Below, piece by piece: positions 16,781-20,112 of a stretch of 64,000 bases of DNA (positions are counted from its first letter, which is position 1; every line of letters starts with the position of its first letter). Source of the DNA: Parcubacteria group bacterium ADurb.Bin192 (lineage in GTDB: Bacteria; Patescibacteriota; Patescibacteriia; 2-12-FULL-60-25). The position numbers were made by a program, and so were the translations under genes. The stretch lies in contig MWCR01000001.1 of NCBI GenBank assembly GCA_002070095.1, positions 186,001-250,000 of the forward strand. Reading direction: 5' to 3'. Below the pieces are notes generated by a model that did no database searches, was not told where the DNA came from, and was given only the letters and a program-made list of their open reading frames with translations.

Positions 16781-16823
16781 GCAGTGTGGCCAAAAAAAAC
16801 CACTGACATTTTAGGAGGAGAGA

Positions 16824-17144
16824 ATGCTGCATTTAACAGCGGAAGACAGGGAGACCTATCTGTACCTGCGCGGCAAGGGGGTTTTGAAGGATGAGGAGGT
16901 ACACAGGGTCCCGATGAGCAAGGGCACAACTCTGGTCTGTTGCGCGGACGGTGATCAGTTCGACGATTTGTACGCCAACCTGGCCGGCATGTGCTTGCAG
17001 AAAATGCCCTGGCCCCGCATTCACACTTTGACCTGCCATGGCGGCGCTCTCATCATCCCTTCGGACTCGCCTTTGAACAAGGGCTTCCGCGGCGTCAACA
17101 TGATCGAGGACATCGTCGATGCCTGGAGCATGAAAGGCACGTAA
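16824..17144 (+). CDS. Beta-carbonic anhydrase-like protein, N-terminal part
   Basis: 106 residues with a strong SD 4 bases before the ATG. The motif LVCCADGDQFDDLYANLAG matches in layout the first zinc motif of beta-carbonic anhydrases (Cys-x-Asp), and CHGGALIIP the strand after it. The frame ends at TAA 17142-17144 after MIEDIVDAWSMKGT. The next codon is an in-frame ATG that continues exactly where the family would place the second zinc motif. So this is either half of a gene broken by one nonsense codon or the first of two coupled halves. Catalysis of CO2 hydration is not established; the whole protein would be shorter than classical enzymes. Confidence 0.6.
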   Translation: MLHLTAEDRETYLYLRGKGVLKDEEVHRVPMSKGTTLVCCADGDQFDDLYANLAGMCLQKMPWPRIHTLTCHGGALIIPSDSPLNKGFRGVNMIEDIVDAWSMKGT

Positions 17145-17432
17145 ATGGTGGCCTTGTACGCGCACGCCCCTTGCGGCGCGGCCACCAAGATTGGCATGAG
17201 TCTGGCCCAAATCTTGGACAACTTGGTCCAAGCCAAGCTGGAACTCAAACAAGCTTTGCTCAAGGCCGGCGCTGCCACCAAAGTTGTGTGCCTGGTGCAC
17301 ATCGACCGCGGTGCGGAAGAAGGCAAACGAACGTACTTTTTGAGCGCCGCTGAGTGGCAGCTCATGACCAGGCACAATCCAATCGTGCCCGGCCGCCGCT
17401 GGCCGGCGCAACTCGCAAAAGCAGCCCCGTAA
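17145..17432 (+). CDS. Beta-carbonic anhydrase-like protein, C-terminal part
   Basis: 95 residues, in the same frame as 16824-17144 and separated from it only by TAA. LYAHAPCGAA carries the His-x-x-Cys pair that supplies two zinc ligands in beta-carbonic anhydrases. An amphipathic helix (LAQILDNLVQAKLELKQAL) and a strand with VCLVHIDRG follow. There is no separate SD close to ATG 17145, so its synthesis would depend on readthrough or re-initiation. A terminator follows at once. Confidence 0.55.
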   Translation: MVALYAHAPCGAATKIGMSLAQILDNLVQAKLELKQALLKAGAATKVVCLVHIDRGAEEGKRTYFLSAAEWQLMTRHNPIVPGRRWPAQLAKAAP

Positions 17433-17448
17433 GGCTGCTCATTTTTTT
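17420..17448 (+). terminator. Terminator of the carbonic anhydrase-like genes
   Basis: Stem AGCAGCC/GGCTGCT with a 6-base loop, then CATTTTTTT. It overlaps the end of the second ORF. Confidence 0.8.
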
Positions 17449-17450
17449 AC

Positions 17451-19189: not shown

Positions 19190-20053
19190 CTAGGCCTCCA
19201 GATCCAGTTCGCGCACGATCAGAGCCAGGCGCGCCAGATCCGACTCATCCAAACCGGCCTCGGCCGGCCCGAGCTTGGGCGGATCAAACCAGCCCAGAGA
19301 GCAGTCTCCCAATTCCGCCGGCGGTCCGAAGGCGGGGATCAGGCCGGTGACGTTATCAAGTTCCCGCAAGACTCCCAGAGTGGCGTCTTTGTCCCGCAAC
19401 AGGCCGATCAAATCCCTGGAGTCCAAGAAGCTCAGGCACTTTTTGGCCTCGACCGCCGCGACAGCGCGAGACCAGGCTTGATACTCTTCCACCGAAGAAC
19501 CGGCTCGGGCAATGTCCAAATCACAAACTCGGCCCAGCCTTTCCAAACCCTCGACAGCTTCAGCTCTCAAGGACCGGCGGCACAGCGCCACGTAGGCGCG
19601 TCCGTATTTCAAGACCAAGTCATCCAGTTCCTGGCGACTGAGGCCCAGATCCGCCAAAAACCCGGATTCAGCCTCGCTAATCTCTTGCTGAATCAGGGCT
19701 GACACCGCCGCGCCCACATAGATATAGCACCCGTCTTCACGAGCCAGGCAAACACGGTAGATGGCCGCCATCTCCAGGCCTGTATACAATTCAGGCAACC
19801 AGTCCTGTCCCAAGCGGCTGCGTTGCAGGCAATCAAGCGCCCGATTGTACAAAAAGCGCAGCATATTGCCGTGGAATTCAGCCGGTGTGACCCGAGCGCT
19901 GTTTTTCAACCGATCGAGAACCGCCTCCAGCAAGCCGACATGTGCAAAAAGCAAAGACGTCAATGTGTCCGCTTCCCGCACATCTCCGGACAGACAACTC
20001 AAGTACTTGGCGGTCGCGTGCTTAACCAACCCCTGATCCACCTGATCCTGCAT
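19190..20053 (-). CDS. Hypothetical helical protein
   Basis: 287 residues from ATG 20053. This start has an AGGAGA SD 7-8 bases upstream and lies inside the transcript predicted from the promoter at 20084-20112; the longer frame from 20086 would begin before the transcript. Predicted almost wholly helical, soluble, no signal peptide. Segments such as FLYNRALDCLQRSRLG and YGRAYVALCRRSLRAEAVEGL suggest a repeat-like helical bundle. I do not recognise the family. It is richer in GC-ending codons than rpsO or xerC nearby. Confidence 0.65.
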   Translation of the reverse strand: MQDQVDQGLVKHATAKYLSCLSGDVREADTLTSLLFAHVGLLEAVLDRLKNSARVTPAEFHGNMLRFLYNRALDCLQRSRLGQDWLPELYTGLEMAAIYRVCLAREDGCYIYVGAAVSALIQQEISEAESGFLADLGLSRQELDDLVLKYGRAYVALCRRSLRAEAVEGLERLGRVCDLDIARAGSSVEEYQAWSRAVAAVEAKKCLSFLDSRDLIGLLRDKDATLGVLRELDNVTGLIPAFGPPAELGDCSLGWFDPPKLGPAEAGLDESDLARLALIVRELDLEA

Positions 20054-20083
20054 GTGACTCTCTCCTTTCAAAGACCGGCTATT

Positions 20084-20112
20084 CATATACTATTTTTTTC
20101 TGATTATGTCAA
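20084..20112 (-). promoter_or_regulatory. Promoter of the 19190 gene
   Basis: Minus-strand TTGACA, 17 bases, TATATG. Confidence 0.75.

Follow-up and report, generated by a model that had tools for sequence, protein, structure and literature searches.

Beta-class carbonic anhydrases (PF00484; E. coli carbonic anhydrase 2, PDB 9eaw) have as their hallmark the Asp-Arg pair of the CxDxR motif. The protein family considered here resembles them in its predicted fold, in the order of its Cys and subsequent His-x-x-Cys residues and in an Asp two positions after the Cys (Asp42, present in 28 of 29 aligned rows), but differs from them in giving no PF00484 match and in having mostly Asp in place of the Arg of CxDxR. 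A likeness to a second described group, Pro_CA_2, is seen in that PF20393 is matched both by a protein from genome G130, the one scanned against Pfam among those that align with our family profile, and by one encoded on contig C10 in the genome under study; the two Pro_CA_2 proteins scanned differ from our family, however, in that both are 140 aa long with CxDxR retained. The gene that we describe lies in a stretch of 64,000 nucleotides (the window) from Parcubacteria group bacterium ADurb.Bin192 and is interrupted by a stop codon. The features of the locus are as follows.

16824..17144, + strand: first ORF, N-terminal half of a carbonic-anhydrase-like protein; 106 aa, ATG start, Cys40 at 16941-16943
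17145..17432, + strand: second ORF, C-terminal half; 95 aa, ATG start, HAPC at 17163-17174
17142..17144, + strand: TAA stop in frame, protein position 107, predicted to fall in the loop that joins helix 91-104 to strand 108-115
16813..16818, + strand: AGGAGG, Shine-Dalgarno-like, of the first ORF, read from the sequence; anti-SD duplex energy -10.2
17133..17137, + strand: AAAGG, resembling a weak Shine-Dalgarno site, ahead of the second ATG, read from the sequence; duplex energy -5.6
17420..17449, + strand: terminator-like hairpin with T-run that overlaps the end of the second ORF; one found against a shuffle mean of 1.4, not significant by count

An earlier note on this DNA had described two ORFs in one frame parted only by a TAA, and coordinates and translation agree with that description: the TAA is the sole break between the two ORFs, an ATG follows it directly, and the read-through frame that joins them comprises 202 positions. 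Apart from the TAA no defect is apparent, with the start, the AGGAGG run and the other 201 codons all intact. The read-through frame matches unbroken homologues across the break, for example that of genome G031 (51% identity over residues 2-184, no stop), and the arrangement is thus not due to chance. The genome under study has one copy of the gene. Elsewhere in the order, 5 of 40 genomes have relatives, four of which belong to the genus itself; identities across the break are 41-51%, again with no stop. The G+C content of the gene, 57-59%, exceeds that of most of its immediate surroundings. A further G+C-rich stretch, up to 62%, coincides with a 298-aa ORF at 19190-20086 (- strand) for which even the best Pfam match falls short of significance (E 0.24) and which is possibly another accessory gene.

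A profile search of the class matched 29 of 380 genomes, counting the window's own and a few weak matches, and five weak or partial ones (L031-L035) among 30 matches of this search, none carrying a flagged stop, were excluded from the alignment of 29 rows on which much of what follows is based. By eye L034 and L035 resemble other carbonic-anhydrase-like types, and genome G246 has two divergent copies of the family (L015, L036). Nine relatives are named, as Patescibacteria group bacterium (6), bacterium (2) and Candidatus Lloydbacteria (1). A draw across the phylum gave 7 matching genomes of 379, namely the window's own, three already known and three new partial ones that lie outside the alignment and have no flagged stop. 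No relative was found on genome contigs with a single protein as query; the family alignment gave nine, five of them contigs already known, and when used against viral contigs it gave none.

Within the alignment Cys40, Gly73, Gly74, His114 and Cys117 are invariant, the Cys and His residues in 29 of 29 rows, and we take Cys40 and the His-x-x-Cys pair to be zinc ligands. The earlier note had placed a CADGD motif in the first ORF and HAPC in the second; the positions are right (residues 40-44 at 16941-16955, and residues 114-117), but CADGD is not conserved as a whole and its invariant part is the Cys. Asp44 occurs in 23 of 29 rows, and the residue found where CxDxR has its Arg is Asp in 23, the window's protein included, His in 3, Arg in 2 and Ser in 1. 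Searches by sequence against established models returned little. None of the 29 members, the window's protein among them, has a significant Pfam match; PF00484 has no match in the window's genome and none among the 29 members at E 0.1; a single member touches PF20393 (E 0.057, below the curated cut-off), the window's protein not doing so; six members scanned against NCBIfam gave nothing better than E 0.043, and the PDB searched by sequence gave nothing better than E 0.78.

Alignment of the family profile to nine carbonic-anhydrase-like proteins found elsewhere in the class, all but one being of a small CxDxR type, gave a probability of 95.9, with Cys40 paired with the CxDxR cysteine and His114 and Cys117 with H-x-x-C; the corresponding values were 0.1 for a reversed set and at most 1.2 for 50 column shuffles. 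The predicted model (pLDDT 79, pTM 0.80, from 10 sequences, and weak around residues 71-90) gave a best VIA match with Z 10.6 and an rmsd of 2.8 over 128 aligned residues. The first 47 of the 50 listed VIA rows, with Z from 10.6 to 8.0, are carbonic anhydrase or YadF entries except for two of carbonyl sulfide hydrolase and Rv1284, the latter presumably also a beta-carbonic anhydrase; the next other fold among the listed rows is adenylate kinase, at Z 6.3. Foldseek ordered by E-value runs against a beta-carbonic anhydrase in that KaiC chains come first (2.5e-4), yet with TMq of only 0.24-0.35, the best beta-carbonic anhydrase, 7coj, standing at rank 19 (1.5e-3, TMq 0.43). The profile alignment, the VIA score and the invariant residues bear out the beta-carbonic-anhydrase-like fold and the Cys and His-x-x-Cys assignment of the earlier note, and the family has the appearance of zinc proteins with the beta-carbonic anhydrase fold. 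We stop short of classing it among the beta-carbonic anhydrases because the defining catalytic residue, the Arg of CxDxR, is usually missing, and its chemistry may be other than CO2 hydration. In G064 a family member adjoins a 360-aa protein that matches CsoSCA_cat and Pro_CA below cut-offs (L113, 1372-2454 and 2500-3090, both +), and in G130 one adjoins a Pro_CA_2 protein (L114, 1396-1815 and 1896-2741, both -); such pairs of carbonic-anhydrase-like genes may hint at a paired function.

How other members of the family deal with position 107 is readily seen from the alignment: residues in this column differ widely and are for the most part hydrophilic (D 5, R 4, G 3, N 3, S 3, T 2, P 2, Q 2, K 2, E 1, H 1). 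The earlier note had proposed just this comparison, and a sense codon stands opposite the TAA in 28 of 28 other members; homologues split at the same point, which it had named as evidence to the contrary, were seen in 0 of 28. Among the members sampled, only this genome shows the split. Stops flagged in the matches of G064, G138 and G172 were considered as signs of a family-wide split and rejected, each being the last codon of its match, at the C-terminus and nowhere near position 107.

In the predicted model residue 107 falls in the loop that separates helix 91-104 from strand 108-115, a strand that leads to His114. The break precedes the His-x-x-Cys strand, so that the first chain holds Cys40, the second holds His114 and Cys117, and neither half has the whole zinc site. 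We consider it fairly probable that a dispensable gene has recently acquired the TAA by nonsense mutation. On this view, which is an inference from the evidence assembled here, the stop is genuine, the product has no activity and the change is recent. A single-codon change would then have hit a member of this uncharacterised carbonic-anhydrase-like family of the beta-carbonic anhydrase fold in a small genome; a ribosome starting at 16824 would stop after residue 106 with loss of the His and Cys zinc ligands, and the encoded protein would most likely be inactive, although leaky re-initiation at the ATG next to the stop may yield some of the C-terminal half.

Any loss of function would be recent. 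Conserved sites are kept at 16 of 18 in the first half and 16 of 18 in the second, which is no different from what intact members show in a count based on 15 of the 29 rows, and in a neutral simulation, limited to substitutions and tolerating no additional stop and up to four losses at the 32 conserved sites that remain, the probability of such preservation falls to 5% at approximately 0.10 substitutions per site (0.047 at 0.10). A working split protein or a sequence error would, however, leave the sequence just as well conserved and just as free of other damage.

The second element of the preferred reading, dispensability, rests on the distribution of the gene. With the window's own genome counted, the family is present in 5 of 9 genomes of the genus and 6 of 41 of the order. 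An intact family gene adjoins an NYN gene in G031, G032 and G033, and in G035 it lies on a different contig from the NYN gene. G028 and G029 have the NYN gene beside a different, secreted-looking gene, with only chance-level family matches at the locus and none elsewhere in either genome, G028 being only 84% complete; G030 and G034 gave no NYN match, and the comparison covered the genus members that did. Since the NYN locus of G028 and G029 is without trace of it, the gene is dispensable within the genus. The window's genome moreover encodes, on contig C10, a separate, uninterrupted putative carbonic anhydrase, the Pro_CA_2 protein mentioned above, with CMDFR and HTDCG (L119, 1459-1881, -), and loss of the window's gene therefore need not remove all such function.

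The alternative that survives best is that the stop is an error of sequence or assembly, or the consensus of a minority strain in a metagenome assembly, with the real gene intact. The stop is seen in one genome only, and that genome is in 69 contigs and may itself be metagenome-assembled, as 8 of the 9 named relatives are by title. On contig C1, a crude scan covering 260 kb argues in the other direction, showing no visible riddling with breaks, albeit weakly, as the scan missed the target gene and so cannot measure the pseudogene load. Four other stop-separated in-frame coding pairs that it returned are by eye separate neighbouring genes, among them what we take to be a histidine-kinase-like gene followed by a response-regulator-like gene, and pilin-like genes. 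On balance we regard an error as unlikely.

More doubtful still is a two-chain protein, in which translation would stop at the TAA and re-initiate at the adjacent ATG, the chains reassembling round one zinc site. Re-initiation is mechanically possible: the ATG abuts the stop (TAAATG) and is preceded by the AAAGG run, whose duplex energy is as strong as or stronger than that of 83% of first-ATG starts of long ORFs; the break falls in a predicted loop between helix and strand, and both halves are equally conserved. Against this, none of the 28 aligned homologues is split there, 17% of 839 internal ATGs have a site as strong as or stronger than -5.6, and Met at the column of the second ATG is shared by one relative that is not split (2 of 29 rows, counting the window's). 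The AGGAGG run of the first ORF equals or exceeds 95% of 144 first-ATG starts of long ORFs in duplex strength. The duplex-energy test says little either way, because median values for first ATGs of long ORFs (-2.0, n=144) and for internal ATGs (-2.9, n=839) do not separate the two. Nor is a promoter of its own evident for the second ORF, the one promoter-like site within the first ORF (17028-17056, 9/12 matches) being what chance predicts (0.9 expected). Improbable as it is, a two-chain protein would be a natural split metalloprotein, with the Cys of its one zinc site contributed by the first chain and the His-x-x-Cys by the second.

Readthrough of the TAA to a full-length protein, whether programmed or by a suppressor, would fit the conservation that carries on past the stop, but is highly improbable given that no aligned relative has a stop at that column, that no other interrupted gene was recognised in the crude scan of C1 and that no suppressor tRNA was found, the anticodons tta, cta and tca being absent from 48 stretches of this draft genome that cover all 50 tRNA matches (65 ARAGORN calls, some tRNAs being counted in more than one stretch).

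The earlier note had left a nonsense mutation, readthrough and a split enzyme made by re-initiation side by side; the first fits best, there being no split homologue and no suppressor tRNA, with the gene missing in some genus members, and the other two are less favoured. On the preferred reading of a recent nonsense mutation, the carbonic-anhydrase-like gene is probably on its way out, and the interruption probably amounts to no more than ordinary gene loss. The literature search found no work joining carbonic anhydrase to Lloydbacteria and one paper joining beta-carbonic anhydrase to the candidate phyla radiation; of 23 papers for Patescibacteria, the 15 listed name neither carbonic anhydrase nor Patescibacteria in title or abstract. 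Novelty of the family is not claimed. What is gained concerning the family is small, namely a predicted beta-carbonic anhydrase fold, without a significant Pfam match and scattered through a class of small-genome bacteria, in which the zinc ligands are kept and the Arg is mostly replaced.
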